DNA from: Colwellia sp. MB02u-6
GTDB taxonomy: Bacteria; Pseudomonadota; Gammaproteobacteria; Enterobacterales; Alteromonadaceae
Reading direction: 5' to 3'
Length of the DNA stretch: 64,000 nt
Assembly (NCBI RefSeq): GCF_014077095.1
Contig: NZ_JACGVG010000036.1
Span: 62,001-126,000 of the forward strand
Part shown: one piece after another, positions 21,649-64,000 of the stretch
Numbering within the stretch: the first letter of the stretch is position 1
Layout of the letters: the number at the start of each line of letters is the position of its first letter
Position numbers and translations under genes: made by a program
Notes under the pieces: generated by a model
What the model saw: the letters and a program-made list of their open reading frames with translations, nothing else
What the model was told of the DNA's origin: nothing
Databases searched by the model: none

Positions 21649-21676
21649 CTATAATTTGATAATACAGGAAAGAAAA

Positions 21677-22860: not shown

Positions 22861-23860
22861 TGTGTAACTGCCTGTGGTTTTACCAAGATTAGGGTTTAAG
22901 GCAGACGATGAATAAGAAAACACTTGTGGCGTTTACGAAGCAAGCCGCCAAATCAATTAAGAGTGAAGTAGACTTAACTGATTTTCGTAAAATGTTCACC
23001 AAAGTGACCGTTCAAGCAGCACTCAATACTGAATTAGACGAGCACCTTGGTTATTCACGTCATGAGCAGTATTATTCATCTAAAACTATACGTACAGAGG
23101 ATGGTGCAGTCGATTTAGACGCGCCGCGTAATAGAGACGCAAGCTTTGAGCCTCTGCTTATCAAGAAAGATCAAGCCCGCTTTACCTCGATGGAGAACAC
23201 GACTTTCTACCTGCCTTCTAAGGGTATGACGACGCGTGACATTGTCTCGACGTTTAAAAAAAAGTACGGTATTGATGTATCAGCAACGCTTATTTCTGGG
23301 TTAACTAACGCTGTTATTGAGCAAGTTATAGAATGGTAAGCAAGGCTTTTAGACGCGGTTTATCACATCGTTTATTTTGCCTGTTTTGTGGTTAAAATAA
23401 AACAAGATAAACAGCTGACCAACAAAGCCGCTGACCTCGCTTCAAACGTCAAAATTGATGGCCATAAATAATCACTCAGTATTTAGATCACCGAAGAGGA
23501 AGGCTTAATGACGTTCGAGAAATTTGAACAGCGCAGGGACAGTAAATACCCAAGTATATCGCGCTCATAACCTAATAATTGACAAAATGTCAGCACGCGA
23601 TAACTGCCTTAGTGATATACGCAAAGCCATTTATACCACTAATGTAATTAAATCATTGAACAGTGTTATTCGTAAGGCCATTAAAAAACGCAAATTATTT
23701 CTGCATGATGAATTGGCTAAAAAATTAATTTATTTAGCGATTGAACAAGCCTCAAAAAAATAGACAATGGCAATAAAAAATTGGAAAACGGCCTTGAATC
23801 GATTTATGATTCAATTCGAAGACCGTTTGAAAGAGCTTGTTTAAACCTAGCAGTTACACA
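22861..23860 (+). mobile_element. IS256-family element, internally deleted remnant
   Basis: Terminal TGTGTAACTG (22861-22870) and CAGTTACACA (23851-23860) form inverted ends. Between them lie the two ends of an IS256-type transposase without its centre. The element is about 1.0 kb, shorter than the usual 1.3 kb or so. No matching 8-bp target duplication is visible at the borders, consistent with age. Confidence 0.8.
22908..23766 (+). pseudogene. IS256-family transposase, broken
   Basis: The N-terminal 143 codons (22908-23339) carry the family start through DLDAPRNRDASFEPLLIKK and GMTTRDIVSTF and stop at VIEW. The same frame region continues after the stop as QARLLDAVYHIVYF. The C-terminal end is in a different frame at about 23524-23840, with IRKAIYTTNVIKSLNSVIRK, LIYLAIEQASKK, a stop, then AIKNWKTALNRF. 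The middle, which holds part of the DDE catalytic core, is missing. It cannot be active. Confidence 0.85.
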
Positions 23861-23917: not shown

Positions 23918-26707
23918 TTAATTAATTTCACTTAGTAGTTTATTAATTTGTTCACGCTCATCAGGCTGTTGAGTTTTAATCGATGTTAGGAAGGATTTGG
24001 CCAATTCACTTTGACTGTCTGCAATTAACGCCTCTGCCTTATGAATAATTATTTGAACTTTAGGGTCGCTATTTGACGATAGCGCTAAATCGTATTGTTC
24101 AATTGCCTGCTTTATTTGTCCATTGGCGACTAGGGCTTGTGCATAGGTGTCAATAAAATCAGAGCTTGTGGGGTTAACTAATAACGCCTTTTTAGCATAA
24201 TGTAATGCCTCCGTGGTATTATTTTGTTGTAACTCCAAGTTTGCTAAGTTGTTTAACGCGACACTATTATTCTTTTCAATTTGGAGAACCGCTTTATATG
24301 TAGCCATCGCTTTCTCTGGTTTTTGTGCAATAATATAGCCGGCTGCCAACATCATTTTCGCCTTAATCGCCAGCGGTTCAGATGATACATGCGCTTCCAA
24401 TATTTCCACTGCTTGTGCTTTATCACCTTTCAAGCTTGCTGATTTTGCCCAATACATTGCGTTATTTTCATTTGGTTGTTTCTTATAAGCGGCATTATAA
24501 TAATTGCTGGAAGCTTTAAAATCTTTTTTCCGATAAGCCAAATGACCGAATGTTTTATCTGTAAACCAATGAGCCACGATATTTTCATTCGCTTTAATTT
24601 CATCTAAATCTTGAGGATTTGGTTCTTCACCTAGTAGAGATTGATAATAAACTTTCAGCAAGACTAACCCTGGTTTGTCTTTATGAGAAGTAATCGACTC
24701 CTTTACTAGCGCAAGGGCTTTATCAAGTTCTCCCATTTGCTCATACAGTGAAAATAATTTATGTATTACCTGTAAATCTTCAGCTTCATTTTTGTTATAT
24801 GTTTGATAAGCTCGTTCTGCATTGCGCCAGTCTTTTATTTGTCTGTAGCTATCACCTAAAGCAAGTTCAATTCCAAAAATAGGATCTCTGCTTTGTTCAA
24901 TCTCTTTGAATAATTCGATGGCTTCTTCAGGAGTATTGTTTTGATTATGTATCAACGCCAAACCAAATTTTAGGTAATTATTTGATGGATTATCTTCCAG
25001 TGCAGTGTGATAAAATTGAATCGCTTTACTTGATAAGTCCATCTTAGTTGTCATTGAAGATGCAATTAAGCGAGTGAAGTTGATCATTGCCCTATGATGC
25101 TGAGGTTGCAGTTTTATCGTTTTGGTATAATAGTTGAACGCCTCACTATTCATGTCATTTTTATGTAAGTGTACGGCCAACCTAAACAATGCAGCCGTAT
25201 TGTTTTCATCAATTTCTATTACTTTATATAAAAGTTTTTCGGCCGCTACTGAATCTCCTTGTTGCTCCAATACTAAACTTTCGAGTAAATAGCCCTGCAC
25301 CTTTTTAGATTCAATACTCTGCCACTTTTTAGCAAATACCAGCGCTTCTGTAAACTGACTATTCTTTAAATACCCCATGACAAGACTTTGTTCGGCAAAT
25401 TCTAAATTGGGGTCTAATTTCAAAGCTTTTTCTAAGTTTTCTATGCCTTTTTCTGTTTTATTAAGGAAAAGTTGTGTGAGGCCTTGTTTAGCGACCTCTT
25501 TAGGATTTTGGCTATTTAAATCAATAGAATATTGCAATAGTTCTTCAGCGACTTCTTTTTTACCTGACGTCAATAATTCATTACTCGCCATAGTAAGCAA
25601 AGCTGGATCGGCTGTATTTAACTCCACCATGGCTCTTAAGTCTGCTACTGCATCAATTTCATAGCCCAGCTTAAGCTGTATCTCAATAATTAGTTGTCTT
25701 ACAATATGCTGAGCAGGTAACATTGCTTTCACGCTATTTAAGTAATTATAGGCTTGTTCTAAGTCCCCTAACTTATAACTGCTAACACCCGCAATAATTT
25801 TAGATATGTGAAAGCCTTCCCCTTGCATAAGTGACTTTAGAGCGTACTCTTGAGCGGCTTGATAGTTTGCTCTGGAAAATTCTATTTCAGCTTTAAATTG
25901 ATTAGCTAAAGGGTGGCTAGCTGACACTTTTAATAGCCTGTCTACTTCTAATTCGGCGGCATCAAAATTTTGTGCGTAAATGTAGTTTTGAGCGATAAAA
26001 AAACGTACTTGAACATCTTTAGGTCTAAGCACTGCATATTGTGAAAATGTTTGAGCTGCAAATTCAAATTTTTCGGTTGCTTGTAATAAATAACCTTTTA
26101 ACATAATCGCATCAGCCATATTAGGAGCCGTAGCTAAAAGTGTTTCGACGGTATTAAGTCCTTCTTGAAAATCATTCTCACTATGAGATATGTAGGCCCG
26201 TCCTATTTGTCCATATATTGAACTATCACTGATCGCTAATGCACTTTCTACATAAAATTTAGCTTGAATATCTTTACCTTCATTAATAGAAGCAATACCT
26301 GCATACGTTAGGATCACAATCATATCATCGTCTTCGTATACACTAGAATGCTCAGCTACTTGATAAATGTAATCATATTTACCCAGTTTATATTTTACTT
26401 GCACTAATTTTGACATTAACTGTTGTTTATTAGGACTAAGCGCTAATGCACGTTCAAGCTCTTTCTCAGCACCCACATAATTACCTTGATTAAGATAAGA
26501 AACCCCTAATAGATATCGAGTTAGAGGATGGTTACTGTCTAGATTAATCGCATTTTTCAACACGATTATTGCACTGGCATAATCCCTTTTTTCGGAATAG
26601 CTTTGCGCTTCTGCCATATACTCTTCAACAGTTTTCGGATCTGAGCAGGACATAATATTTATTATTATTAAATATACGAATATGAGTTTTAAACTTATAC
26701 GAGGCAT
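23918..26707 (-). CDS. PEP-CTERM system TPR-repeat lipoprotein (PrsT-like), copy 1
   Basis: A lipoprotein of 929 residues. The ATG at 26707, with GGAG 8 nt upstream, gives MPRISLKLIFVYLIIINIMSC, a signal peptide with a lipobox-like cysteine; the frame stays open 23 codons further upstream but that makes no signal peptide. The rest is a long array of TPR repeats, for example AIIVLKNAINLDSNHPLTRY and ATYKAVLQIEKNNSVALNNL. PrsT proteins accompany exosortase A loci and probably act as envelope scaffolds. It is the downstream member of a tandem pair with the next gene. Confidence 0.85.
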   Translation of the reverse strand: MPRISLKLIFVYLIIINIMSCSDPKTVEEYMAEAQSYSEKRDYASAIIVLKNAINLDSNHPLTRYLLGVSYLNQGNYVGAEKELERALALSPNKQQLMSKLVQVKYKLGKYDYIYQVAEHSSVYEDDDMIVILTYAGIASINEGKDIQAKFYVESALAISDSSIYGQIGRAYISHSENDFQEGLNTVETLLATAPNMADAIMLKGYLLQATEKFEFAAQTFSQYAVLRPKDVQVRFFIAQNYIYAQNFDAAELEVDRLLKVSASHPLANQFKAEIEFSRANYQAAQEYALKSLMQGEGFHISKIIAGVSSYKLGDLEQAYNYLNSVKAMLPAQHIVRQLIIEIQLKLGYEIDAVADLRAMVELNTADPALLTMASNELLTSGKKEVAEELLQYSIDLNSQNPKEVAKQGLTQLFLNKTEKGIENLEKALKLDPNLEFAEQSLVMGYLKNSQFTEALVFAKKWQSIESKKVQGYLLESLVLEQQGDSVAAEKLLYKVIEIDENNTAALFRLAVHLHKNDMNSEAFNYYTKTIKLQPQHHRAMINFTRLIASSMTTKMDLSSKAIQFYHTALEDNPSNNYLKFGLALIHNQNNTPEEAIELFKEIEQSRDPIFGIELALGDSYRQIKDWRNAERAYQTYNKNEAEDLQVIHKLFSLYEQMGELDKALALVKESITSHKDKPGLVLLKVYYQSLLGEEPNPQDLDEIKANENIVAHWFTDKTFGHLAYRKKDFKASSNYYNAAYKKQPNENNAMYWAKSASLKGDKAQAVEILEAHVSSEPLAIKAKMMLAAGYIIAQKPEKAMATYKAVLQIEKNNSVALNNLANLELQQNNTTEALHYAKKALLVNPTSSDFIDTYAQALVANGQIKQAIEQYDLALSSNSDPKVQIIIHKAEALIADSQSELAKSFLTSIKTQQPDEREQINKLLSEIN

Positions 26708-26841
26708 TAGTGGAACTCCATTTGTTGTAATATCTTCATATGTGGTTATCATATTGGCAAAACACTTGCTGTCCAAAGCCTAATAACATTTATTTAGTTA
26801 AGCATATTATTAGCGGTATAATAGGCATAATTTGAAATTTT

Positions 26842-26883
26842 ATTTACTTGCTACTTTTGGACAACAAAAAATAGCAAGTAAAT
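26842..26883 (-). terminator. 12-bp hairpin between the two PrsT genes
   Basis: ATTTACTTGCTA (26842-26853) and TAGCAAGTAAAT (26872-26883) are perfectly complementary around an 18-nt loop. It lies about 75 bp after the stop of copy 2 and before copy 1 on the minus strand. There is only a weak T-rich tail, so it may attenuate rather than fully end transcription. Confidence 0.45.
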
Positions 26884-26958
26884 GTTTATAGACAAGATAA
26901 GCTGCCAACCTTCAATCGTTAACGAACATTTAATAAAAAGCCAATAAAAAACAAAGTT

Positions 26959-29718
26959 TTACTGCTTTTCTGCAAGTGTCATCAGCGACGCTTTTCTCAG
27001 GCTAAGCTTATTGTTACTAGCTGCTGATTGTTGCAAGAGTGCTATCGCCTCTTTATTAAGGTTATTAGCAATTAATACTTCTGCATAATTAAGTGCGATA
27101 CTCATATCCTGCCCATTGCTTATTTTATATGCTTTTGATAACGCTTTCCATGAGGCTAATCTTTCCCCTATTTTAAGTAGTACCATTCCTCTTGTATCGA
27201 TAACATTTGGATTTTCAGGGGCAAGTTTAATCGACTTTTTAGAATGTAATTGTGCTTTTTCTAATTCGCCTTTTTCCAAGTATAGCCATGAAAGGTTATT
27301 GAGAACAATGACATTACTAGGTTCATTAATAAGCATTTTTTTGTAAGCTAAAATTGCACTGTTAGGCTCTGTAGCTAAATAGCTATCAGCCAACATCATA
27401 CGTACACGGTTGTCTTGCTCATTCTTCGCCAAATATTCCTGCAAAACCTTTTGTGCTTGTACTTCTTGGTTGTTACCTTTAAACGCTAGCGCAAGTAATA
27501 AGACATTTTTTTGTGATGGATAAGCTTGGTAAAAAAGCGTTAACTTTTGAGTGGCCTTAACAAAATCTTTTTCTAGAAAAGCGATACGCCCTTCTATACC
27601 TGATTTAAACTCAAACTTAACACTCTGCACCTGTTGATCTTGATACAGTTTTTTGGCTTCATAAAGCTTATTTATGTCCAACAACAATTGAATTTTTACG
27701 ATTTTTAATACTAAGCTTTCTTCATGATGATCCAACAACGCTTTATCTAGATACTGCAATGCTCTGTCTACTTGTCTTTGCTTAACGTAATAATCAGAAA
27801 CCATGAGAATAGGTTCTATATGATAAGGGTTAGCCTTTAACCACTTCTCGATGGTGGTAATTAATTGCAGCTCATTCTGTTGCTTTGTATAAATAGCTAT
27901 ACGTTGTAACCAGGCCTTTTTGGGTGTTTTAACATTGCTTGCCATGCCATTGGAAATAACGAGCGCTTGTGTTAAATCATCTGAATTAATAAGCGCATCA
28001 ATATATAACAAAGTTAATGCGATATTATCGCTACTTTTTTGATAAGCCTGCTCAATTTTAGCTAAAGCTTGCTCATCGGGTTTTAATGCATAGTAATAGC
28101 GTAAAGCTTTTGCATTGTCTGGATATTCTTCAATCGCACGTAGAGAAAATTTTTCAGCTGCTGTTTTATTACCTTCCGTGTAATTAAGCTTCGCTAACTC
28201 GGTAAGTGCAAATAGATTATTGGCTTCTTTAAGTAAACTTGTTTGTAATGCTTGGGTAGCAAGCTCATTGTTTTTTTGCGCAATATAAACAGCAGCAAGC
28301 ATATTATAGCTACCGGCTATATCAGGCCGTTTTTCTTGCCATGCCTTAGCAAGTTTAAGCGCTTTATCGTAATTACCTGTTTGTAATGCAGCATAAGTAA
28401 TCACAAGTTCTACGCCTTCAAAATTTGGATTTGCTTCAAGTGTTAATTCTAAATCTTCAACCCCTGAAGGATCATTAGTCATTAATTTTAATATACCGCT
28501 GCGAATACTTTGCTCTGCATTCGATTCGGCTGCACTCTCATTAGCTTGCTTTGCTAGAATCTTAGCTTGGTCAACGGCCCCTAGTTCAGCAAGTTGAAAG
28601 CTCAAACTAGATAAAAAACGTACTTCTTCAGAAGTAGTAGCGTTAAAGCCAATGAGTGTTTCATTTATATCATCAATTAACCCCAACTGAAGCTGGCTTA
28701 TCGCCAACATTTTCCTTGAATAATGGTTGGCTGGCATTTGTTTTACAATAGCGTTTAAATGATGATAAGCGCTTTCATAATTATTTACATTGAATGCACT
28801 CGTGCCAGCAATTAATTTTAACACCGGCAAATTATAGTTTTGATTAAGCGCAGTTTCGGCATGTGACTTGGCAAGTGTAAAATCCTTTTTATCGAACATA
28901 GTCACAGCTTTTACATAATTGGCTAGAGGTTGTTCACTGCTAAGTACAAGTATATCATCGGCATATTTTTCAGCTTCATCATATTTATTATCGCGTAATA
29001 ATGCATGAGCAATAAACAATTTAGTGACGCTCACTTGTGGCTGATATTTTTCATATTGCTTGAAATTTTCTGCCGCACTGGCAAATTTATTTAAAGCAAA
29101 AGAAATATGACCTTTTAACAACAAGGCATCAATGTTTTGAGAGTCTGCTAGTAAAGCTGCTGATACTAAAGAAAGTGCCTCTTCATTATTATTTTTGGAA
29201 AAATTAACGTAAGCATTTGCTAACAAGGTATAGGAGTGGGACTCAGACAGTGACATGATTCTCAGGGTTATTTTTTGAGCTACTTCAAGTTTTCCGCTAA
29301 AGACAGCGCCAATACTTTTAAAGGCTAAGTATCTAATTTTACTATCTATAACTAAGTATTCACTGTCTTCAGATAGGCTTGAAATATCTTCATAATTTTC
29401 CGCTAAAAAATAAGCCCTTGCTAATAAAGGCACAACTTTATTAGCGTCGTAGTTTAATGAATGCGCTCGCTCTAACTCTTTAATAGCCACTAAACTATTA
29501 CCTTGAGATAAATACAACTGACCCAATAAAAAGCGTGCTTCCGCGTTTTTCCCATCAACTTTTAAAGCATTTTTTAGTTCTATTTCACTTGTACTTAGTT
29601 CGTTTTTTTCTATTGCAGACTTCGCTTTGACAACATGCTCTTGTGAAGTCATGTTTTCACCGCAAGCAGATATAAAAACCGCGACCCCTAAATACGTTGC
29701 TAATTGATTGAATTTCAA
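26959..29718 (-). CDS. PEP-CTERM system TPR-repeat lipoprotein (PrsT-like), copy 2
   Basis: A TPR-rich lipoprotein of 919 residues. I start at the TTG at 29718 because AAGGAG lies 8 nt upstream, giving MKFNQLATYLGVAVFISAC, a short lipoprotein signal peptide. An upstream in-frame ATG at 29769 would add a charged, non-signal leader. Repeats such as AEIELKNALKVDGKNAEARF and SKKSIKLAPENPNVIDTRGM run along the protein. It is similar in design to copy 1 but not closely identical, so the duplication is old. Its 5' end faces exosortase A across a 319-bp divergent region. Confidence 0.85.
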   Translation of the reverse strand: MKFNQLATYLGVAVFISACGENMTSQEHVVKAKSAIEKNELSTSEIELKNALKVDGKNAEARFLLGQLYLSQGNSLVAIKELERAHSLNYDANKVVPLLARAYFLAENYEDISSLSEDSEYLVIDSKIRYLAFKSIGAVFSGKLEVAQKITLRIMSLSESHSYTLLANAYVNFSKNNNEEALSLVSAALLADSQNIDALLLKGHISFALNKFASAAENFKQYEKYQPQVSVTKLFIAHALLRDNKYDEAEKYADDILVLSSEQPLANYVKAVTMFDKKDFTLAKSHAETALNQNYNLPVLKLIAGTSAFNVNNYESAYHHLNAIVKQMPANHYSRKMLAISQLQLGLIDDINETLIGFNATTSEEVRFLSSLSFQLAELGAVDQAKILAKQANESAAESNAEQSIRSGILKLMTNDPSGVEDLELTLEANPNFEGVELVITYAALQTGNYDKALKLAKAWQEKRPDIAGSYNMLAAVYIAQKNNELATQALQTSLLKEANNLFALTELAKLNYTEGNKTAAEKFSLRAIEEYPDNAKALRYYYALKPDEQALAKIEQAYQKSSDNIALTLLYIDALINSDDLTQALVISNGMASNVKTPKKAWLQRIAIYTKQQNELQLITTIEKWLKANPYHIEPILMVSDYYVKQRQVDRALQYLDKALLDHHEESLVLKIVKIQLLLDINKLYEAKKLYQDQQVQSVKFEFKSGIEGRIAFLEKDFVKATQKLTLFYQAYPSQKNVLLLALAFKGNNQEVQAQKVLQEYLAKNEQDNRVRMMLADSYLATEPNSAILAYKKMLINEPSNVIVLNNLSWLYLEKGELEKAQLHSKKSIKLAPENPNVIDTRGMVLLKIGERLASWKALSKAYKISNGQDMSIALNYAEVLIANNLNKEAIALLQQSAASNNKLSLRKASLMTLAEKQ

Positions 29719-30037
29719 AACATCTACTCCTTGTGTTTTATTCTTAATATTTAAGTATCTTCTTTTCAATAACTTAGCCTAGCATTGCTATTAAATCTTT
29801 CATCAAAGTTAACGTTAATACCTAGAAAAATACTATTCTCATCACTGATTCCTTAATGTCTCTAGTAAATATAACCACTTATAAGCCTTTAAATAAAGAC
29901 AAACCATTAAAATATTGTTAACTTAATTGCAACAAAATAAATTCCATTGAATAAATTTCATTATTGTAATTAACAGTAGCGTTAATTACAGATAAGCTTT
30001 TCATTTATTCTCCCAGTTATATTATAGATAAAGTAAG
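29719..30037. promoter_or_regulatory. divergent control region between prsT copy 2 and exosortase A, with a 10-bp dyad
   Basis: No gene is visible. TGTAATTAAC (29965-29974) and GTTAATTACA (29981-29990) form a perfect 10-bp dyad with a 6-nt spacer, ending 47 bp before the exosortase start codon. Size, symmetry and position suit a repressor or activator dimer site. It is not a terminator, as no T-run or upstream gene on that strand needs one. I found no GG-N10-GC element for either gene here. Confidence 0.5.
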
Positions 30038-31453
30038 ATGATAAAATTGAATAAAAACATTGAAATCGTTAACATTTTCTTTAAAACACCCTTGTTAGGT
30101 ATCTTGCTCATTTTTTTCACCATTGCATTATTAAACATACCTATTTTAGTCACTTTATGGCGACATAGTTTTGATGATGGCACATACTCTCATGCTTACT
30201 TAATACCCATTATTTCACTGTATCTATTTTATATATTACAAAAAGCAGGAAAGTTGACTTTTCGAGAGAAACTATCGATTCCTGCAACAGTAATATTTAC
30301 TTTTTCTTGTTTAACATTATTTATAATGAGTAATGCCCAAATAAGTTTAGGTTATTGGTGCTCTCTGCTAGCCGTTCTAGTCACTAGTATTAATATGCTT
30401 TACAAATTGAACGGGTATATAGTTTTCCCTAGCGTATTTCTAATTTTCATCATGCCCGTTTGGGGCATGATGAACAATATACTTCAAACAATATCAGTCA
30501 GCGTAGTGACCTACTTTATGAGTTTTACCGGTGTGCCAACTTATGTTGACGGTAATTTTGTCACTATTCCTGCAGGTGTTTTTGAAATAGCCGATGGTTG
30601 TAGTGGTTTAAGGTACATGATCGTTTCATTAGCGATCAGTTCACTATTTAGCTTTCTATATATTAATAATATCAAAAAGGCGTTAGGATTTTTTGTCCTT
30701 GCTATTTTTGGCGCATTACTCACTAACTGGATAAGAATTACAGCGTTAATATTAATTGGTGAGTATACCAATATGGAAAGTAGCTTGATGGAAGATCATA
30801 ATACTTTTGGCTGGTATTTGTTTATTCCATTTATGTTCATTTTGTTTTGGTGGGGTAATAAAAATGCTGATATTGATTTAACTGCCACACAATCAGACTG
30901 CATTCCAAAATCAACTAAACAATTTAATACGTCACAAGTTGAAAGCCATACTAATAAGCCTGCTTTAGCGGTTTTATTAGTAATATTGGCTTTGTCATCC
31001 ACCACTTTCAGCACAATGTTGATACCTGCTCCGACCGCTAGTAATTTAACCAGCGATGCTGCATTTGAACTGAAGCCAGAAATTCATTTTTATACTTTTG
31101 TTACTAAGACATCAGTTTCGAAAGATAAGGCTATTGAGCTTACGTATTTTTTTAGTGGTAAAAAATTAGACGGTAAGCCAAGTTATTACGAGAATGATTT
31201 AATCCCTAGTGGCTGGCAATCTATTGAGCAAGATGTTCGCAAAAATCAGAAAATATATATCGTATTTAAGGCCGGTAAAACTGCAGTAATGGCTACCAGC
31301 TATGAAATTAACAAGCAACTGTTTGCATCACTTAGAGCGTTTAAGATCGCCCGATTAACCATGGCGGTCAAGAACATTAATCAGACAAAACTACATTGGA
31401 AATTTATCCCCTGTCAGCAACGCCATTGTAAAGCTGAATTACAAAGCCTCTAA
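30038..31453 (+). CDS. xrtA: exosortase A (XrtA), with C-terminal EpsI-like region
   Basis: The membrane cysteine protease/transpeptidase that recognises PEP-CTERM signals. Residues 1-275 are polytopic with about eight helices. The conserved triad is present: Cys188 in EIADGCSGLRYM, Arg233 in LLTNWIRITAL, His254 in EDHNTFGWYLF. From about residue 300 a further membrane anchor and a periplasmic domain follow, with YYENDLIPSGWQSIEQ; this corresponds to the EpsI-type region fused to exosortase A in proteobacteria. Substrates in the window are the two PEP-CTERM proteins. Its 3' end overlaps the frameshifted gene on the other strand by 15 bp. Confidence 0.93.
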   Translation: MIKLNKNIEIVNIFFKTPLLGILLIFFTIALLNIPILVTLWRHSFDDGTYSHAYLIPIISLYLFYILQKAGKLTFREKLSIPATVIFTFSCLTLFIMSNAQISLGYWCSLLAVLVTSINMLYKLNGYIVFPSVFLIFIMPVWGMMNNILQTISVSVVTYFMSFTGVPTYVDGNFVTIPAGVFEIADGCSGLRYMIVSLAISSLFSFLYINNIKKALGFFVLAIFGALLTNWIRITALILIGEYTNMESSLMEDHNTFGWYLFIPFMFILFWWGNKNADIDLTATQSDCIPKSTKQFNTSQVESHTNKPALAVLLVILALSSTTFSTMLIPAPTASNLTSDAAFELKPEIHFYTFVTKTSVSKDKAIELTYFFSGKKLDGKPSYYENDLIPSGWQSIEQDVRKNQKIYIVFKAGKTAVMATSYEINKQLFASLRAFKIARLTMAVKNINQTKLHWKFIPCQQRHCKAELQSL

Positions 31454-43523: not shown

Positions 43524-45047
43524 ATGAAAAAACAATTACTCACCAGCTCTCTTTTTCGGTTTCTTGAACGTGGCATCGTCGTATTAACGTCTTTTTTGCT
43601 TACGCCGTTTTTTCTTAATGAATTAGGCAGTACACATTATGGTTTATGGCTATTAATTTTATCTATATTAGGTTGGTTTAATGTTGTTGATTTAGGTTTT
43701 CCGCAAGCGATACAACGCCAAATAGTACAAGCCTTAGAGCTAAACGACAAAAAGCGCGTTAATGTTATTTTTTCAACCGGCCTAGTGCTTTTTACCGTTT
43801 TAGGTGGTTTTTCTGTTTTAACTTTAGTTGGCTTAACTACAGTACCCGCTATTTTTGGTGTTGAGGGTTTAGACCAAATTACTTTAGTTGATATTTTATT
43901 AATATTATCGGTGAAGATACTGTGGGGGTTTATGATGAACCCTTTTCATGGTTTTTTTTCTGGTATGCTGCGTTTTGATATTGATGCAAATCTGTCTTCA
44001 CTAAACGCTATTGTAAAAGCCATTATGGTGTTTTTACTCTTATCCGACTTGAATATTTGGGGCGCTGTTGTCGCGACACTGGCTAGTGATGTATTAACCA
44101 ATATCCTGAAAATTCATTATGCTAAACGATTATTTCCTGAGCTTAGGTTTAGCTTTAAGCTCGCCAGCAAAAAAGAACTTATTGATTTATTTGCTTACTC
44201 AAAACACTTAGTCATTAACGGTATTGCCAATACTATTGGCACAAAATCACGTCCTTTAATTATTACTCAGTTATTCGACCTACCTTCTTTGGCCTTGGCG
44301 AGTATCGCCAGTAATTTAATTATGCATACCTCAGCATTCGTTAGTTCGATTACCGGGGTATTTTCACCTTTATTTAACAAAAAAGCGGCTCGCAATGAAA
44401 ATATGGAGCAGCTATTTAATCAAACCACCCGTATTAACTTATTCGCTTCCACGGTGTTATTTTTATCGCTATTTATTTTTGGTAAGGTGTTTATCCTTTT
44501 ATGGGTAGGCTATGAATTTGAATACGCGGTTAATTTATTGTATTTAGGCGTGATTTCATCTTTGTTTGCTGCTTTTAGCAATTCGGCCAATACGGTTTTA
44601 TTTGCCCAGGCAAACCATAAATATATCTCGGTGATCACTATTACATCTGTGGTATTTAATATTACTTTAAGCATTATTTTAGGTTTGAAATTTGGCCTTA
44701 TCGGTTTGGCCGCAGGCGGTGTAGTCAACAGTGCTATTTTTAATGTCTTTGCCAAAGTATTTCTTTTTAAGCAATACAATAATTATAATATGCGCGAGCT
44801 TTATTGGTGTTTATCAAAGTCTTTATTGATAACCATTATTTTAGGCATGACCGGCAGTTACTTATTGGATTATTTAGCGATTAACACTTGGTTAGAATTT
44901 TTATTATCTGCTACGTTAGCCTTCCCTTTTATTATACTTATTTGTTGGGTATTGTTACTTAATAAGGACATTAAAAAGACTCTGTTGCATTATGTTATTG
45001 CACGTATTGTCCCGGGTGTTAAGAAAAAATTTATAAAGGAATTATAA
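43524..45047 (+). CDS. lipopolysaccharide/EPS repeat-unit flippase (Wzx-like)
   Basis: A 507-residue integral membrane protein with about 12-14 helices, starting FRFLERGIVVLTSFLLTPFF, with the conserved GLWLLILSILGWFNVVDLGF stretch of MOP-superfamily oligosaccharide flippases. It should move the undecaprenyl-linked repeat unit to the periplasmic face. It precedes the polymerase gene by 4 bp, so the two are probably co-translated. Confidence 0.87.
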   Translation: MKKQLLTSSLFRFLERGIVVLTSFLLTPFFLNELGSTHYGLWLLILSILGWFNVVDLGFPQAIQRQIVQALELNDKKRVNVIFSTGLVLFTVLGGFSVLTLVGLTTVPAIFGVEGLDQITLVDILLILSVKILWGFMMNPFHGFFSGMLRFDIDANLSSLNAIVKAIMVFLLLSDLNIWGAVVATLASDVLTNILKIHYAKRLFPELRFSFKLASKKELIDLFAYSKHLVINGIANTIGTKSRPLIITQLFDLPSLALASIASNLIMHTSAFVSSITGVFSPLFNKKAARNENMEQLFNQTTRINLFASTVLFLSLFIFGKVFILLWVGYEFEYAVNLLYLGVISSLFAAFSNSANTVLFAQANHKYISVITITSVVFNITLSIILGLKFGLIGLAAGGVVNSAIFNVFAKVFLFKQYNNYNMRELYWCLSKSLLITIILGMTGSYLLDYLAINTWLEFLLSATLAFPFIILICWVLLLNKDIKKTLLHYVIARIVPGVKKKFIKEL

Positions 45048-45051
45048 AAGT

Positions 45052-46383
45052 ATGGCTCGTTATTTCCCGAAAAATAAAACCGAAGACTCGCCGTTAGGTT
45101 TCTTCTTTTTATTTTTATATACCGCCTCAGTGCTTATTCGTCCTCATGAAATGTTTCAAATAAGTCTTCAGTGGATAACCATTCAAATTTTTATCATTAT
45201 TGCCTTTGGCGCCACTGTTGCCATGCATAGGCCAATAAAAATGTATCCACAGCATTGGATGATATTAGGCTTAGTGCCGTTAATTATAGTCTCAGGGTTC
45301 TTGAACGGTTCAGGCATGATAGGTGTCGACCAATCTAAGCGCATAATGATCAGTGCGCTGTTTCCTCTCTTCTTATATTCAAACTGTATAACCAGTATTA
45401 AGCGCCAACACATACTTATGGTTGTTTGTCTTTTTGCTGCATTACTTATGGTGCATAACGGCCATATACAACAAACAGCATATCAAGGCGCAGGTTGGGC
45501 ATTAGGCACATACTCTGTTGGTTACATTAATCTTGGTGAGCGGCGCATTACTTATTTAGGGTTTTTTAATGATCCAAATGATCTAGGTATGTTTTTAGTG
45601 ATGAACATTCCTTTTGCTATTTATTTTTATAAAAAAAGCCAAGCGGTCAGTAAAGTAATCATGCTTAGCGTATTGGTGGCGCTATTTTACGGTATTTATT
45701 TAACTGGTTCTCGTGGCACTATGCTCGGCGCGGGCGCTTTAATTGCGGTATATTTTATCGTAATGAATGCAGGACCAAAACTATTTATTACCATTGTAGT
45801 TCTCGCCCCTATTGCGGCTACAGTAATAACATCTCTACAAAGTAATATGGACGAGTCTGCCGATGGCCGCTTAGAGGCTTGGTATGCTGGGGTTCTCATG
45901 CTATTAAATAATCCTATTTTTGGTATCGGCATGGGGCAGTTTCTTGAAGAACATGGCTTAGTGGCACACAATTCATATATTCATGTTGCTGCTGAATTAG
46001 GGGTGCCTGGATATTCTTTATGGGGCGGGGCATTGATTTTTACCGCGTTAACGGGATATCTATTTGTTCAGGATAGAATTAGCAAGAAAAAGCTAGACGA
46101 CGCTGAAACAACTCTTCCGCCTGAAGAAGAAGCAGAGTTATTTCTAAACAAAACCCTGTTCTTTTCTTTGGTCGGCTTTATGATAACGGGCTTTTTTATC
46201 AGTAGAATGTTCACGCTATTGCTATTCATCTTTTTAGGTATGGCAATAGCGTCTCACATTAGACTCGTAAAGCTCAATCCAGAATATGCAATACACTTTT
46301 CTACACGCCTTGCTGTTCGATCTATGCTTTATTGCTGGTCAATTATAGTTGCTGTTTATATTTCCTTAAAGCTAGGATTGTAA
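45052..46383 (+). CDS. O-antigen ligase / Wzy-type polymerase
   Basis: A 443-residue polytopic protein with the Wzy_C region at about 210-330: GIYLTGSRGTMLGAGALIAV, then a long periplasmic loop with NNPIFGIGMGQF and the catalytic-type histidine in VAHNSYIHVAAELGVPGYSL. This is the O-antigen ligase/polymerase family; exosortase A loci carry an O-glycosylation-ligase relative of it. Whether it polymerises repeat units or glycosylates PEP-CTERM proteins cannot be decided. AAGGA is upstream of the ATG. Confidence 0.82.
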   Translation: MARYFPKNKTEDSPLGFFFLFLYTASVLIRPHEMFQISLQWITIQIFIIIAFGATVAMHRPIKMYPQHWMILGLVPLIIVSGFLNGSGMIGVDQSKRIMISALFPLFLYSNCITSIKRQHILMVVCLFAALLMVHNGHIQQTAYQGAGWALGTYSVGYINLGERRITYLGFFNDPNDLGMFLVMNIPFAIYFYKKSQAVSKVIMLSVLVALFYGIYLTGSRGTMLGAGALIAVYFIVMNAGPKLFITIVVLAPIAATVITSLQSNMDESADGRLEAWYAGVLMLLNNPIFGIGMGQFLEEHGLVAHNSYIHVAAELGVPGYSLWGGALIFTALTGYLFVQDRISKKKLDDAETTLPPEEEAELFLNKTLFFSLVGFMITGFFISRMFTLLLFIFLGMAIASHIRLVKLNPEYAIHFSTRLAVRSMLYCWSIIVAVYISLKLGL

Positions 46384-47664: not shown

Positions 47665-49623
47665 TTAATGTGTTGGGTATATTGTTCTAACTTCTGTATT
47701 TTCCAACTGTGTGTTAATACTATTTTTACGGTAAAGCGACAACTGTGCGGGGTTAATATATCCTGCTATTTTTTCCAAATCATTTAATTTTATTCCTTGC
47801 TCAGACAGAAAAGTAAGATAGGTATGTCGCAAGCTTTCTAGGCTAATGCCTTCTGGTTTTGCTAACGCTGCGTCATGAGCGCTATTAGTGATTAAGTGAG
47901 ATAGTTCTTCAAGTGAATAATCTTCATCAAAAATATTGTCTTGCGTGTTTTTATACTGCATAACGTCTGCAGTTAGCAGACTGACTTCAGGTGATAACAC
48001 TATATTTCTGGCGAACGCTCCGTTAACTTCAAGGGTGTTTTTTTCTAAATCAACATCCTGTAACTTAATTGCTAATAACTCTTTAATATTCACGCCACTT
48101 AATACTAGTAAAATAACAAATTTTCCTTGTTTACTAGCAAAACTCACCAGTTTATGACATTCACCAGCACTTAAAAGTCGAAAAATTTCCATAGCAGATT
48201 TTTGTTCAAGCAGTGCTTGATTTTCGGAAATTTGAGCTTCTTGTTGATGAAGCAGTTGTCGCTTATCGCTCATGTCATTGGGCACTACGGTATAGTTTGA
48301 AAAAACTGTTGATGCCTGTTTTTGTCGTACAATATAACTAAACAAGAATAATGCTAATAGTGAAATAACAACCGCTACTAGCAGGCTAATCAAAGAGTCT
48401 CTTTGGTTATTCGGTGCAATCGGGTAATTAGGCACAAACGGATATTCTAGCACCTTAAATTGAGACTTAGCTACTTGCTGCATTTCCTGTAAAAGCAGGC
48501 TATCTTTTAGGCTTTGCGCTTGCGTTACCAACTGATTTAATGAATCGTTCAAACGAGTATATTCTTTTAAACTACGATTAAAAACTTGCGCTTTTACACT
48601 GAGAGTATCAAGTTGCTCGGTTAATAGGCTTACCTTGTTTTTTGCTACCAGCAAGTTGTTATTCGCTTCTTTTACGTACATAGTCTGGCTTAATAGACTC
48701 TGTTCTTCTAATTGGTTTTGCAGATTTAATAATGTTTTTTGCATCGAAATTATTCTAGGATCTTTCTCCATATATTTTCGCGTATATTTCTCAGAAAAGT
48801 CACTCAATTGATTTTCAATTTTAGCTATATTTTGTCTTATCATTGCAAGAGTAGCTTCATCTTCAGGATGAATAATTAACCTATTTTCTTTTTCAGCATA
48901 GTTAATGCGGTTTACTATTTCTTGCTGGTTAAGGTAGTCTTGTTCGGCAGTATGTAGCAATTTCCCCAGCGAATTTACTTTATTTAAAATTCTATTTTCA
49001 TCACGCTCAAGAGAGACAATGTTATTATTTTGGCTATAGGCAATTAACACTGCTTTTTGCTGCGATATTTTTTCCTCTAAAGCATTAAGCATGTTACTTA
49101 TGCTTAATATACTGTCAACATTATTACTATTGTTTTCTGCACTAAAAGTATGAAGGTATTCTTCTACCCAAGTAGACAAGATGGGCTGCAATTGTTCACG
49201 GTTACTACCTGTTGCCTTAAGGTTAATAATTTGACCATTTTGAAGCTCTGCACTTAGCATTTCACTCAGTAACTGCACATTGCTTTGTATACCGTAATTA
49301 ACGAGTATACTGTGATTAACTGCTGTTAATATGCTGTGGCTTGTTAGGCGCTGCTGACTTTGCAAGCTATCTGTCATCAAAGTAGCAGAAGACTGCTCAA
49401 CGGGTATTTGCGTTTTAGAAAGCTGGATAGTCGCTTGGCTTTCAAAAATATTTTCTCTCGTCCATACCAAAATCAACGATACTATAAGAACAAATAAAAA
49501 TGTTCCTATCAGTACTTGCCATTTTTTCGTTTGTAAAATTTCGTTTTGAATATTGGCATCTAATTCTGTATTTTGGGCTTGATATACGGGAGATATCACA
49601 TCTACGCTCCGATCGAAAGACAC
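47665..49623 (-). CDS. Wzz/GumC-type chain-length protein fused to a degenerate tyrosine-recombinase domain
   Basis: A 652-residue protein. Residues 1-435 are a polysaccharide co-polymerase: first membrane helix about 36-54, a periplasmic coiled-coil region, the Pro-rich motif FVPNYPIAPNNQRDS and a second helix about 410-432. The cytoplasmic part (about 478-640) reads like a phage-integrase catalytic domain: LSGVNIKELLAIKLQDVDLE, NIVLSPEV, SLRHTYLTFLSEQG and IAGYINPAQLSLYR. The first catalytic Arg is Asn512, the box II His is absent, and the GH motif is GY (621-622); Arg599 and Tyr631 remain. It is probably not a recombinase. No kinase Walker motifs are seen. Confidence 0.8.
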   Translation of the reverse strand: MSFDRSVDVISPVYQAQNTELDANIQNEILQTKKWQVLIGTFLFVLIVSLILVWTRENIFESQATIQLSKTQIPVEQSSATLMTDSLQSQQRLTSHSILTAVNHSILVNYGIQSNVQLLSEMLSAELQNGQIINLKATGSNREQLQPILSTWVEEYLHTFSAENNSNNVDSILSISNMLNALEEKISQQKAVLIAYSQNNNIVSLERDENRILNKVNSLGKLLHTAEQDYLNQQEIVNRINYAEKENRLIIHPEDEATLAMIRQNIAKIENQLSDFSEKYTRKYMEKDPRIISMQKTLLNLQNQLEEQSLLSQTMYVKEANNNLLVAKNKVSLLTEQLDTLSVKAQVFNRSLKEYTRLNDSLNQLVTQAQSLKDSLLLQEMQQVAKSQFKVLEYPFVPNYPIAPNNQRDSLISLLVAVVISLLALFLFSYIVRQKQASTVFSNYTVVPNDMSDKRQLLHQQEAQISENQALLEQKSAMEIFRLLSAGECHKLVSFASKQGKFVILLVLSGVNIKELLAIKLQDVDLEKNTLEVNGAFARNIVLSPEVSLLTADVMQYKNTQDNIFDEDYSLEELSHLITNSAHDAALAKPEGISLESLRHTYLTFLSEQGIKLNDLEKIAGYINPAQLSLYRKNSINTQLENTEVRTIYPTH

Positions 49624-49858: not shown

Positions 49859-50254
49859 TTAATTTATTTCTCTTACTATTTCAATAATTTCAGTGGTTGA
49901 TATTGAAGGTGTTCTCGGTAAATAAATAACTTCGCATATAGCGTTAAACTCATCAAAACGCCCTTGCCAATCATCGCCCATCACTAATATATCAGCCTTA
50001 GTGTCGATGATATATTGACGCTTTAACTCCAGTGAGTTTTCGAAGAAAACTTCATTAACACATTTTAATTCTTTAATTATTTCCATGCGATGTTGTTCAT
50101 TGCATATTGGATTTCGCTGCTTTTTAGAGAAATTTAACGCATCGGTTGATACACCAACAATTAAATAAGCACCTAGGGCTTTTGCCCGTTTTAATATCTG
50201 TAAATGACCAATATGAAATAAATCAAATGTGCCAAAGGTAAGTACCTTTTTCAT
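49859..50254 (-). CDS. glycerol-3-phosphate cytidylyltransferase (TagD-like)
   Basis: A 131-residue nucleotidyltransferase that would make CDP-glycerol from CTP and glycerol-3-phosphate. Motifs: TFGTFDLFHIGHLQILKRAK (HxGH), NPICNEQHRMEIIKELK, and LPRTPSISTTEI (the RTxGISTT-type motif). Length and order match TagD/TarD. It lies 26 bp downstream of a CDP-glycerol glycerophosphotransferase-like gene, which supports the assignment; ethanolamine-phosphate or heptose relatives have different motif surroundings. Confidence 0.87.
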   Translation of the reverse strand: MKKVLTFGTFDLFHIGHLQILKRAKALGAYLIVGVSTDALNFSKKQRNPICNEQHRMEIIKELKCVNEVFFENSLELKRQYIIDTKADILVMGDDWQGRFDEFNAICEVIYLPRTPSISTTEIIEIVREIN

Positions 50255-50280
50255 AAACTTATATCCTTATTTGTTATTTG

Positions 50281-51465
50281 TTATTTGGTCAGTTCATTAT
50301 AAAGTTGATTTGAGAATGGCGAAGAATCATGTTGAGTTTTATCATGAAACTTAGCTTTTAAGTGATCGTACTGCTTTTTATACTCTATTGATTTACTATC
50401 ATTTTTTAGCATAATCAATCGATCTAGTATGTCATTCCAACTATAGCAATAGGGCTTTAATGTCACCTCCTCAAATTCAAAATAAAGTGCTCGTTCACGT
50501 TTTTTATAAAGGTCTAAGTCGAACGGTGCAAACACAATAGGCTTATTTGACAATAGAAAGTCAAAATAAATACTTGAATAATCTGTGATTAAGCAATCAT
50601 ATTGGTTGATTGTTTGGTATATGTCGTTTCCTGCATCTAACTGAATATTTTTTGAATTTTTTATTTGTTTTACTATTTGATAAGGCGGTTTATTTACTGG
50701 GTGCATGCGTAACGTTAACTGAATATTATGCTTTGTAAGTTCAGTTTCCATTTGCTCAATGTCAAATCCGTACTTTTCAAACAGATCACATTCAGACGCC
50801 ATTCCACCTCGAAATGTTGGCATGTAAATACATTTAAATTGTTCGTTTTCAATATTTTCAATATTTTCAAAAAAAACATCATTACGAGGAAAGCCACAAG
50901 TTAATACCTTGTTTAGAGGAACTCTAAATGCTTTTGCTAATACATTTTGCGTAAGTTCACTGGTGGCGACAACAATATCATTTCGGTGTTTATTATAAGG
51001 TGACAACCAATCAATAAACCGCCCCATTGAGTTTTTTGGATTTTCACGTTCACCAAAGACGTCAAACATTATTTTTTTTAAGGGAATACCATGCCAGAGT
51101 TGAACAACCTCTGTTCTCTGCCCTATAGAAGGAGAAAATAGATCATCGTGCAGCGACTGACAAATAAAAGCCTTACTCGCTCGTAATTGATGCCAAATTC
51201 CTTTATAACTTCTCTCATGATAAGCGCAGTAACCTTTTTGCTGAAGCTCTATCAATATATTAGGCTTTTTAGTGATCCATACGGCTTTAGTCTTATCACC
51301 ATGATACTTATTTACGAATTCAAAGAAAGCTTTAGGGTTGTCACTATATTTTTGACCAAACCATGCGCTAAACACCCATAAACTTTTACGCTTTGGGATA
51401 ATTTTACCAAGCATATAAAAAAACAAATTAATAACTAATGCACTAGCAAGTTGTATTTTATTCAT
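50281..51465 (-). CDS. CDP-glycerol glycerophosphotransferase family protein (TagB/TagF-like)
   Basis: A protein of 394 residues from ATG 51465 (AAGGA 8 nt upstream); the frame is open from 51504. Family blocks are VVQLWHGIPLKKIMFDVFG, PTFRGGMASECD, LRMHPVNKPPYQIV and CLITDYSSIYFDFLLSNKPI. Such enzymes add glycerol-phosphate units from CDP-glycerol. With TagD next to it, the polysaccharide probably carries glycerol-phosphate as a backbone or side group. Known in Gram-positive teichoic acids and some Gram-negative capsules. Confidence 0.87.
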   Translation of the reverse strand: MNKIQLASALVINLFFYMLGKIIPKRKSLWVFSAWFGQKYSDNPKAFFEFVNKYHGDKTKAVWITKKPNILIELQQKGYCAYHERSYKGIWHQLRASKAFICQSLHDDLFSPSIGQRTEVVQLWHGIPLKKIMFDVFGERENPKNSMGRFIDWLSPYNKHRNDIVVATSELTQNVLAKAFRVPLNKVLTCGFPRNDVFFENIENIENEQFKCIYMPTFRGGMASECDLFEKYGFDIEQMETELTKHNIQLTLRMHPVNKPPYQIVKQIKNSKNIQLDAGNDIYQTINQYDCLITDYSSIYFDFLLSNKPIVFAPFDLDLYKKRERALYFEFEEVTLKPYCYSWNDILDRLIMLKNDSKSIEYKKQYDHLKAKFHDKTQHDSSPFSNQLYNELTK

Positions 51466-51564
51466 CAAAAAAATCCTTTTATTCTTTTTTATTACTTCAT
51501 CCAACTTGCTTCGAAAAACTGTTTATAGTGAAAAAAACCAACAGTAAACCTGAATACAGTGTGA

Positions 51565-61232: not shown

Positions 61233-62642
61233 TTAGCGGCCTTTGCCAAATAAAATGATTTCAACTGTTCTGATTAAAATCAGTAAATCCAACATAAAGC
61301 TGCGATGTTTGATGTAATACAAATCGTATTTTAGTTTTTCTAAAGAGTCATTTTCTGTAGCGCCGTATGGGTACTTAAGTTGCGCCCAGCCTGTTAAGCC
61401 CGGTTTAACATTATGGCGTTCATTATAGTATGGAATATTCTTAATCAACTGCTGAACAAACTCTGGCCGCTCGGGACGAGGGCCAACAAAACCCATTTCA
61501 CCCAACATTACGTTATATATTTGTGGTAGTTCATCAATGCGATATTTTCGAATAAACTTGCCAATTTTTGTGGTTCTATTGTCATTTTCTGAGGCCATTT
61601 GAGCACCATTTTTTTCTGCATCAAGTCGCATACTTCTAAATTTAATAATATTAAAAGCTTCGCCATCTACGCCAACACGCTCTTGGGAATAAAAAACAGG
61701 CGCTTTTAACCCTTCATCTAACTTAATTAATAGGGTAGTAATGAGCATAATAGGCCAAGTGACCATCAGTAAAATCAAGCCCATACCCGCATTAAAAATC
61801 CAGTCTAAAGTGTTTCGTAAATGATTAGATGATGCAAAGCCATTAGAATATATAACCCAACTTGGATAAATTAAATTAACAGCAATTTGACCCGTTTCAC
61901 GCTCTATAAAGTCAAGGATTTCTGTTATTTCAACGCCCCTAATTTTACAGGCAAAAAGTTCATCCACAGGTAGATTTTCTCGGCGCTCGTCGTTGGCCAC
62001 AACAATTTCATCAATTTGATGCTCTAACGCGTAATTAACTAATGAGGTATCTAACTTAATGATATTTTCATTGATGATGCCATGGTCAGCATCGCCATTA
62101 AGGACCACAAAGCCATGCATAAAAAAGTTTTGTCGGTCAACATCTCGACGCATTCGCCTTTCTATAATCGAGGCACGTTCACCTACTCCTAATACTAGGA
62201 TATTGCGTTTATTGAAACCAAAAAAGTCTATTCGTAGTGTTAAATACCTCACGGCACTCACTATGAAGAAACTTATCAATGACGCCGTAGCTAATAACTC
62301 AATAGCTAATGCACCATCACCGTAAATAAGATTAAGCAAAGAAACAATAAAGAAACCGATAGCGACCGACACTAGTGATCTTCTCATTACGCCTCGTAAG
62401 TTCTCCCTTAATTTTGAGTTATAAAGTCCCATTGCCAAACATGAAAGCTGAACCATCAAGGCAAAAACAACTGCGTGGATAAACAACACGTTTAACGCGA
62501 CACTTTGTGGATCGTAAGCAACAAAATGAAATAAACTATTTAGGTATAAGCTCAGTAAAAGTGCGCCCGCAAAACAGAAAAATTCGATTAGGACTAAAGA
62601 CTTGCTACCCACAGGTAAATTGCGAAATTTAAGATTCGACAT
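61233..62642 (-). CDS. polyprenyl-phosphate glycosylphosphotransferase (initiating sugar transferase)
   Basis: A 469-residue WbaP/EpsB-type enzyme that loads the first sugar phosphate on undecaprenyl phosphate. Four N-terminal helices (about 15-140) are followed by a CoA-binding-like domain with RNILVLGVGERASIIERRMR, one more helix near 285-305, and the catalytic domain with KFRSMRLDAEKNGAQMASEN, RKYRIDELPQIYNVMLGEMG, VGPRPERPEFV and NVKPGLTGWAQL. This is the PEP-CTERM/exosortase-associated type of sugar transferase. It is divergent from the export operon. Confidence 0.93.
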   Translation of the reverse strand: MSNLKFRNLPVGSKSLVLIEFFCFAGALLLSLYLNSLFHFVAYDPQSVALNVLFIHAVVFALMVQLSCLAMGLYNSKLRENLRGVMRRSLVSVAIGFFIVSLLNLIYGDGALAIELLATASLISFFIVSAVRYLTLRIDFFGFNKRNILVLGVGERASIIERRMRRDVDRQNFFMHGFVVLNGDADHGIINENIIKLDTSLVNYALEHQIDEIVVANDERRENLPVDELFACKIRGVEITEILDFIERETGQIAVNLIYPSWVIYSNGFASSNHLRNTLDWIFNAGMGLILLMVTWPIMLITTLLIKLDEGLKAPVFYSQERVGVDGEAFNIIKFRSMRLDAEKNGAQMASENDNRTTKIGKFIRKYRIDELPQIYNVMLGEMGFVGPRPERPEFVQQLIKNIPYYNERHNVKPGLTGWAQLKYPYGATENDSLEKLKYDLYYIKHRSFMLDLLILIRTVEIILFGKGR

Positions 62643-62876: not shown

Positions 62877-63512
62877 ATGGAAAAATGCATGACTAATACA
62901 TTAAAAGCACTTATATTTCTTGCACTAGGCTATATTGTAACCGGATGTAGTTCACCTACATTACCTCCTGCCCAGCTTCACCCGTCAAACACTGTAGATG
63001 TAGATTCGTACAAATATTTAATTGGTGCCGGCGATGTGGTCAATATTTTTGTTTGGCGAAATCCTGAAGTTTCGGGCACGTTTATCGTCCGTCCTGATGG
63101 TATGATCACCACTTCGCTAGTTGAAGATATTCCCGTATCAGGCAAAACACCCACAGAACTTGCCCGTTCAATTGAAGAAATACTTGCTACCTATTTGCGA
63201 GAACCTGTTGTGACCGTAACGGTCAATAATTTTGTTGGCCCCTTCAGTGAACAAATTCGCATTATTGGTGAAGCAGCCCAGCCCCAGTCGGTTAGTTATA
63301 TTCAGCAGATGACCTTATTAGACGTTATGATCCGCGTTGGTGGGTTAACTGAGTTTGCCAATGGTAACGGGGCAATATTAGTGCGTATAGAAAATGGTCT
63401 ACAAAAACAATATGACATATTTATTGAAGACCTAATTAAAAATGGGGAAATATCAGCAAATGTTGATGTATTACCTGGCGATATTATCGTAATACCTGAA
63501 ACATGGTTTTAA
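62877..63512 (+). CDS. Wza-type polysaccharide export lipoprotein (exosortase A-associated)
   Basis: A 211-residue outer-membrane lipoprotein. Signal peptide with lipobox VTGC, then a polysaccharide export (Poly_export) domain: LIGAGDVVNIFVWRNPEVSG, then TFIVRPDGMITTSLVEDI and a SLBB-like part (IIGEAAQPQSVSYIQQMTLL, MIRVGGLTEFANG). The protein is short, as in exosortase A loci, where the export protein is smaller than E. coli Wza. AAGAAGG is 8 nt before the ATG; a second in-frame ATG is four codons later. Confidence 0.92.
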   Translation: MEKCMTNTLKALIFLALGYIVTGCSSPTLPPAQLHPSNTVDVDSYKYLIGAGDVVNIFVWRNPEVSGTFIVRPDGMITTSLVEDIPVSGKTPTELARSIEEILATYLREPVVTVTVNNFVGPFSEQIRIIGEAAQPQSVSYIQQMTLLDVMIRVGGLTEFANGNGAILVRIENGLQKQYDIFIEDLIKNGEISANVDVLPGDIIVIPETWF

Positions 63513-63549: not shown

Positions 63550-64000
63550 ATGCAAGAAATTATAGAACAAATTATAGATTACCTTAAAGGGATTTGGCTT
63601 AAGCGTCGCTTTATTATTATATCAACTTGGTTAATATGCCCGTTAGCGTGGGTTTATATTGCTCAACTTGATAATGTGTATGAGTCTGATGCCCGTATAT
63701 ACGCAGATACTCAATCTATCCTGGGTCCGTTGTTAAAAGGTTTAACGGTTGAAACAAATCCCCAAACACAAATCCGTTTAATGATTAAAACGCTGTTAAG
63801 TCGCCCAAATCTAGAGCGCATAACGCGTATGACAGATTTAGATGTGCAAGCCACCACGCCTGCAGCTTATGAGTCATTAATTGATCGCTTAAAATCTAAT
63901 ATTACGATTAGAAAAACGGGTGGTCGTGCAGACAATATTTTTACCATTTCTTATCTAGATAAAGATCCTGAAATGGCAAAAAATGTTGTTAATTCTGCAT
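63550..64000 (+). CDS. Wzz-type chain-length protein, N-terminal part (cut by window end)
   Basis: The first 150 codons read from ATG 63550 (AGG just upstream) start MQEIIEQIIDYLKGIWLKRR, followed by a membrane helix FIIISTWLICPLAWVYIAQL and a periplasmic part with YESDARIYADTQSILGPLLK. This is the GumC/Wzz-like protein of exosortase A EPS operons. The C-terminus, and whether it carries a kinase domain, is outside the window. It is separate in sequence and position from the fusion protein at 47665-49623. Confidence 0.9.
   Translation, partial: MQEIIEQIIDYLKGIWLKRRFIIISTWLICPLAWVYIAQLDNVYESDARIYADTQSILGPLLKGLTVETNPQTQIRLMIKTLLSRPNLERITRMTDLDVQATTPAAYESLIDRLKSNITIRKTGGRADNIFTISYLDKDPEMAKNVVNSA

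Follow-up and report, generated by a model that had tools for sequence, protein, structure and literature searches.

Polysaccharide co-polymerases (PCPs) of the PCP-2 type are understood through the kinase-driven assembly and disassembly of their rings, and their oligomeric state is reported to be set by a cytoplasmic kinase (PMC12004946). The same paper describes EcpK of Myxococcus, a separate protein with a catalytically dead kinase fold in the cytoplasm, which serves the PCP EpsV and is proposed to be a scaffold that sets the oligomeric state by contact alone (PMC12004946). In a 64,000-nucleotide stretch of Colwellia sp. MB02u-6 (contig NZ_JACGVG010000036.1, positions 62,001 to 126,000; hereafter the window), an intact open reading frame (ORF) with a GTG start at 47665..49623 on the minus strand encodes a protein of 652 residues, in which a Wzz/Wzc-type PCP half is followed by a tyrosine-recombinase catalytic (CAT)-like domain at the position of the Wzc kinase. 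The initial annotation had proposed such an arrangement, in which a degenerate tyrosine-recombinase domain of a chain-length protein sits where Wzc proteins have their kinase, and this proposal is borne out by the sequence, by the predicted fold, and by 47 distinct sequences. We consider it on balance probable that the protein is an accessory, PCP-2-like PCP, in which a dead, acidic tyrosine-recombinase fold has taken the place of the tyrosine kinase as an interaction or assembly module.

Like the Wzc-type PCP-2a proteins, the fusion has two membrane helices, a long helical periplasmic part, and a C-terminal cytoplasmic domain, but where Wzc carries a P-loop tyrosine kinase with a Tyr-rich tail, the fusion carries a domain of recombinase fold behind a probably disordered linker. 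The first membrane helix (about residues 35 to 54; 49462..49521, minus strand, as are all parts of the gene) was read directly as a hydrophobic stretch and lies in a helix of residues 19 to 54 in the AlphaFold2 (AF2) model, while the second (about residues 411 to 432; 48328..48393) lies in a helix of residues 406 to 432. The large periplasmic domain between them (residues 55 to 405; 48409..49461) was delimited with AF2, Foldseek, and hhalign; it consists of an alpha/beta base and an arm of long helices reaching to about residue 400, and it includes the strongly conserved family signature IVSLERDENR (residues 202 to 211; 48991..49020), the pattern used by our scan. The cytoplasmic linker (residues 433 to 480; 48184..48327) was modeled with low confidence, with a predicted local distance difference test (pLDDT) value below 50 at residues 433 to 478, and directly precedes the CAT-like domain (residues 481 to 652; 47668..48183), with no core-binding domain between them in the AF2 model. 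The full-length model, a monomer computed from a 19-sequence alignment, has a mean pLDDT of 79.2 and a predicted template modeling score (pTM) of 0.34, and the placement of the domains in the whole protein is therefore unreliable.

The recombinase fold of the C-terminal domain is supported by several lines of evidence. The Pfam model PF00589 matches residues 501 to 634 with 35 bits (cut-off, 27.1; E = 1.5e-8), and a profile of the family, compared with the sequences of the PDB, finds XerA (5hxy; E = 4.8e-16). An AF2 model of residues 455 to 652 alone reaches a pLDDT of 82.8 and a pTM of 0.78, and its top Foldseek match is again XerA (E = 1.3e-7; TM [query], 0.64), with further Xer proteins and integrases of integrons, phages, and conjugative elements among the weaker matches. 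In view of these four results, a chance resemblance to integrases is ruled out; the initial annotation had named the lack of an integrase fold in a structure prediction as a refuting outcome, and the prediction did not overturn its claim. With XerA and the Xer-type and integron recombinases of PF00589 the domain shares the CAT fold and the order of the boxes, but it has no core-binding domain, has lost the catalytic set, and is acidic and membrane anchored; the XerA model NF040815 gives the fusion protein 51.5 bits, under an equivalog cut-off of 220. Because the PF00589 score lies above its cut-off, genes of this kind may be filed as integrases.

The homology of the N-terminal half to chain-length proteins becomes visible through its relatives. 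At E ≤ 5, the window protein as such was matched by no Wzz model, while among 19 family members Pfam Wzz matched 14 and TIGR03007 matched 17 at E ≤ 1, with the window protein in neither group. Aligned by hhalign with the canonical XrtA chain-length determinant of the same locus, a TIGR03007 protein, the family profile covers 348 columns with a probability of 97.3% (E = 2.1e-11) at 17% identity. The top Foldseek match of the full-length model is Wzc (E = 1.8e-10), at a TM (query) of only 0.30 in a model of low pTM, and WzzE and KpsE were found as well. Like the TIGR03007 proteins, PCP-2b members with a separate kinase, the fusion has a PCP half of common descent and is found in the same locus, but its family remains far under the TIGR03007 cut-off of 278.85 bits (50.6 to 71.7 bits among the matches listed; no match for the window protein), and the 530-residue TIGR03007 protein of the locus is matched by no recombinase model.

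To place the catalytic residues, we aligned 19 family sequences and a selection of 12 recombinases encoded by carrier genomes, drawn from 23 of the charge comparison described below. Relative to these recombinases, the window protein has Asn512 at the box I Arg, Glu596 at the box II His, and Tyr622 at the box III His, and the beta-hairpin Lys is found in none of the 19 family sequences; what the initial annotation said of the residues of the window protein is correct. Its statement that Arg599 and Tyr631 remain is right for the window protein but does not hold as a rule of the family. This became apparent in a larger set drawn from 56 loci, one of which (L053, from genome G177, with an internal stop) has no ORF of 540 codons, the other 55 giving 47 distinct sequences, the window's included. 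In this set the box II Arg (Arg599) is kept in 43 and lost in 4, the Tyr (Tyr631) is kept in 42 and lost in 5, the box I Arg and the box II His occur in one sequence each, and the box III His/Trp in none. Of the 5 scored catalytic positions, a single sequence keeps 3 at best; an active recombinase is ruled out by these residues, and the domain is a pseudo-recombinase.

A fold that has lost its activity might be no more than a relic, a passive cap that stabilizes or oligomerizes the protein without any specific partner and leaves the function to the PCP half. The free drift of the catalytic positions across the 47 sequences is compatible with such a cap, as is the rate of nonsynonymous substitution (dN), which in several close pairs is higher in the C-terminal domain than in the N-terminal half (0.183 and 0.074 for the window protein and L003). 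However, Gly510, Gly610, and Gly621 are invariant, Tyr602 and Arg539 are each found in 46 of 47 sequences, and all full-length matches listed, which come from several orders, extend into the C-terminal domain. The ratio of nonsynonymous to synonymous substitution (dN/dS) of this domain within the genus is likewise well under 1, at 0.15 to 0.33 in 14 of 15 pairs, the exception being the closest one (0.64), for which dS is only 0.03. We therefore regard a passive cap as unlikely; the C-terminal domain is, judging by these ratios, under purifying selection. Its conserved residues, which further include Asp584 (45/47) and Glu515 (44/47, with Asp in the remaining 3), are residues of the fold.

Other Wzz-integrase fusions, for which the initial annotation had suggested a search, do exist. 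Within the same family, 34 of 395 genomes gave a full-length match, 6 in the same genus and 28 across five other genera, and a class-wide sample of 369 genomes gave 6 at E ≤ 1e-20, that is, 5 in addition to our own. In a taxonomically named scan, 18 of 19 loci have the whole architecture, the nineteenth (L030) being an ordinary Xer-like integrase; the loci named include Colwellia, Alteromonas, other Alteromonadaceae, and two Aromatoleum, along with metagenome-assembled genomes of Paraglaciecola, Burkholderiales, and (two) Chromatiales. The identities of the N- and C-terminal halves correlate with an r of 0.96 over 1081 nonindependent pairs of the 47 sequences, and in a midpoint-rooted tree the sequences of the family Alteromonadaceae split from the others with full support, albeit with long-branch warnings. 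The fusion is old and common to many bacteria. An assembly chimera or a young fusion is ruled out by the 47 distinct sequences of the same layout, and carriage on sequenced plasmids or phages was rejected after none of 72,556 plasmid and 50,697 phage records matched at E ≤ 1e-5.

What the domain does may be approached through its charge. Its net charge is negative in all 47 sequences (−1 to −13), with an isoelectric point of 4.6 to 5.8 in the 19 for which it was computed, whereas among 29 other recombinases taken from six carrier genomes, our own included, 27 are net positive and 2 stand at −1. These comparison sequences, whose activity is unproven, came mostly from the better-scoring matches; 29 of the 30 loci matched were used, the thirtieth (L113) being a member of the fusion family, and one short locus (L088), placed first by an assumed offset and then by its first stop-free placement, was positive both ways. 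Given this contrast, DNA binding by the whole face of the domain is probably not to be expected. The charge bears directly on another explanation, namely, that the protein is a membrane-tethered regulator whose dead fold binds DNA and couples the state of the polymer to transcription. MrpR, YopR, and SroF, dead-recombinase repressors (the first two from phages) in which the fold was likewise reused after the loss of catalysis, are among the Foldseek matches of the domain (E = 1e-3 and weaker), and Arg599 is kept in most of the family. For MrpR, a soluble protein with a core-binding domain, the fold is reported to have persisted, and with it DNA binding, after recombinase function was lost (PMC10516654). 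The fusion, in contrast, is acidic, membrane bound, and joined to a PCP, has only a low-confidence linker where MrpR has its core-binding domain, and has lost the catalytic Arg, Lys, and His positions, so that we rate a DNA-binding regulator as decidedly unlikely. Among the functions suggested in the initial annotation, DNA binding and the control of gene expression are accordingly disfavored, and binding of a partner or of the membrane-side machinery fares better. On a PCP, a recombinase fold whose catalysis is gone and whose net charge is reversed would best fit a role in contact or assembly.

The fusion co-occurs with exosortase systems. With exosortase matches taken at E thresholds of 1e-3 and 1e-10, an exosortase was found in 32 of 34 carriers and 229 of 361 noncarriers of the family (Fisher P = 1.0e-4, uncorrected for kinship). 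For class carriers from beyond the family, the figures are 5 of 5 against 109 of 361 (P = 0.003, likewise uncorrected). All genomes of loci L025 to L029 have one as well; genomes behind such locus numbers partly duplicate those of the genome set and were kept out of the family counts. Of 39 carriers, 37 have a canonical TIGR03007 protein that scores above the cut-off, while G348 and G364 (92% and 84% complete) have none; such a protein is also present in 23 of 31 noncarriers, a hand-picked group, 8 of them chosen for having no exosortase, from which no rate follows.

This association could be a by-product of lineage if the protein worked outside the Wzy pathway, as a PCP-derived envelope scaffold acting, for example, with ABC-2 transporters in the manner of KpsE. 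KpsE is among the fold matches, the gene is mostly unlinked to polysaccharide genes beyond its own genus, and an ABC ATPase and an ABC-2 permease are encoded a few kilobases upstream of the fusion gene in L114 (2686-4388) and in L029 of Chromatiales (2731-4471). On the other hand, this pair is seen at those 2 loci only, all 5 class carriers outside the family have an exosortase, and at all 6 loci examined in the genus the fusion gene lies in the same polysaccharide neighborhood. We judge such a scaffold to be distinctly improbable.

Our preferred reading, an accessory PCP with a pseudo-recombinase as its contact module, builds on the two-part protein, both homologies, the lost catalytic set, the acidity, the spread, the conservation, and the co-occurrence with exosortase systems. 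In this model, the periplasmic part would form a ring and work with the Wzy polymerase or the export channel like other PCPs, while the pseudo-recombinase, independently of phosphorylation and of DNA, would act through protein contact, either in ring assembly or in docking a cytoplasmic partner. Its genome also encodes the canonical TIGR03007 protein with a separate kinase, beside which the fusion would be an additional PCP; the main PCP would therefore probably stay in place, with the fusion adjusting the length or the export of a product made by this system. EcpK offers a precedent for a dead cytoplasmic domain in the service of a PCP, although it differs from the fusion in its kinase fold and in being encoded as a protein of its own. 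The subunits of Xer and Cre recombinases are joined by a head-to-tail exchange of helices. A bolder and rather doubtful extension is that the fusions form a new PCP class of exosortase-system bacteria, in which a tyrosine-recombinase fold became, by loss of catalysis and reversal of charge, a phosphorylation-independent cytoplasmic assembly ring, with such a helix exchange cycling the PCP ring.

Several observations weigh against the accessory-PCP reading. The exosortase association ignores kinship, and the genus itself shows none, with an exosortase in 16 of 17 genomes and the fusion gene in 6 of 17; the sole genome of the genus without an exosortase match, G010, is a carrier, which on its single contig has kept the polysaccharide locus and the fusion gene, the latter at a distance of 12 kb from a canonical chain-length gene. 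The other carrier without a match, G348, is a fragmented assembly. Outside the genus, the fusion gene mostly stands apart from polysaccharide genes, its neighbors being DTW, alkyltransferase-like, and HD-GYP genes in many Alteromonadaceae or lineage-specific others elsewhere, and the sequence comparisons have pinned down no partner protein. One of the 34 family copies, that of G177, has an internal stop. The net charge would be compatible with a local basic patch on the domain, and the AF2 model, a monomer from 19 sequences, fixes neither the oligomeric state nor the domain placement.

In kind, the protein is a PCP variant, within the known kinds, whose cytoplasmic module is of a new kind. The initial annotation knew of no described protein of this architecture, and we found no description of a chain-length/recombinase fusion among open-license PMC papers; the 2006 PEP-CTERM/EpsH paper mentions chain-length proteins and, in a search of its passages, has neither "integrase" nor "recombinase" (PMC1569441). 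A conserved branch with a dead recombinase in place of the kinase amounts to an experiment of nature on the purpose of the cytoplasmic domain in PCP-2 proteins. It also represents the recruitment of a DNA-enzyme fold into envelope biogenesis and adds to exosortase/PEP-CTERM research a candidate component usually encoded elsewhere in the genome.

As judged from its gene content, the window is an exosortase/PEP-CTERM-type polysaccharide locus. Its exosortase gene (30038..31453, plus strand) scores 173.8 bits with TIGR02602 (cut-off, 105.55) and 171.7 bits with the XrtA model, under that model's cut-off of 208. Candidates for a Wzx-like flippase (43524..45047, plus strand; NF007773, 42 bits, under the cut-off of 273) and an O-antigen-ligase/Wzy-like polymerase (45052..46383, plus strand; TIGR03097, 51.8 bits, under the cut-off of 188.1) precede the fusion gene. 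Further on lie the genes for the initiating sugar-phosphate transferase EpsB_2 (61233..62642, minus strand; TIGR03013, 611 bits), the Wza-like polysaccharide export protein of the XrtA system (62877..63512, plus strand; TIGR03027, 224.5 bits), and the start of the canonical chain-length determinant (63550..64000, plus strand; TIGR03007, 571 bits in L059), which extends past the window and is followed in L059 by a separate tyrosine autokinase (TIGR03018, 262 bits). These four scores are above the respective cut-offs, as are those of TIGR03016 and TIGR03015 in the locus.

Adjoining the fusion gene at 49859-51504 are a cytidylyltransferase-like gene and a CDP-glycerol glycerophosphotransferase gene (PF01467 and PF04464), which suggest that the polymer may carry glycerol-phosphate. 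Near the exosortase gene, the sequence at 20648-22411 and 23918-29769 reads as coding for a pair of proteins whose tails are PEP-CTERM-like and for a pair of large repeat proteins; PEP-CTERM-like and large repeat proteins are the usual neighborhood of exosortases. A short ORF at 22908-23339 resembles what we take to be a fragment of an IS256-type transposase.

The neighborhoods of the fusion gene were clustered over 37 loci, 36 of them with the fusion gene and three genomes doubled (L014/L069, L018/L071, and L024/L068). Members of the DTW cluster occur in 18 of these loci, of the alkyltransferase-like cluster in 13, and of the HD-GYP cluster in 11, each cluster being named by Pfam from one representative. 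No conserved genomic partner was found either in these loci or in the 5 that the class-wide sample added from outside the family. The latter had no match to the DTW, alkyltransferase-like, or HD-GYP clusters and shared with the earlier neighbors only broad families, namely, ABC ATPases, efflux pump parts, response regulators, and a polysaccharide deacetylase like that of the window. Polysaccharide-type genes are nearby in 2 of these 5 loci: in L115 the fusion gene is followed after 14 bases by a gene for a family 2 glycosyltransferase, and in L118 genes for a family 2 glycosyltransferase and a polysaccharide deacetylase lie 2.8 to 4.4 kb from it. Beside the DTW gene that neighbors the fusion gene in the Alteromonadaceae loci L065, L016, L018, L073, and L075 we observed a run of small ORFs on the same strand resembling an integron cassette array; about 14 kb away in L065 (genome G096) lies a gene whose product scores above the cut-off of the integron integrase model TIGR02249 (292 bits).
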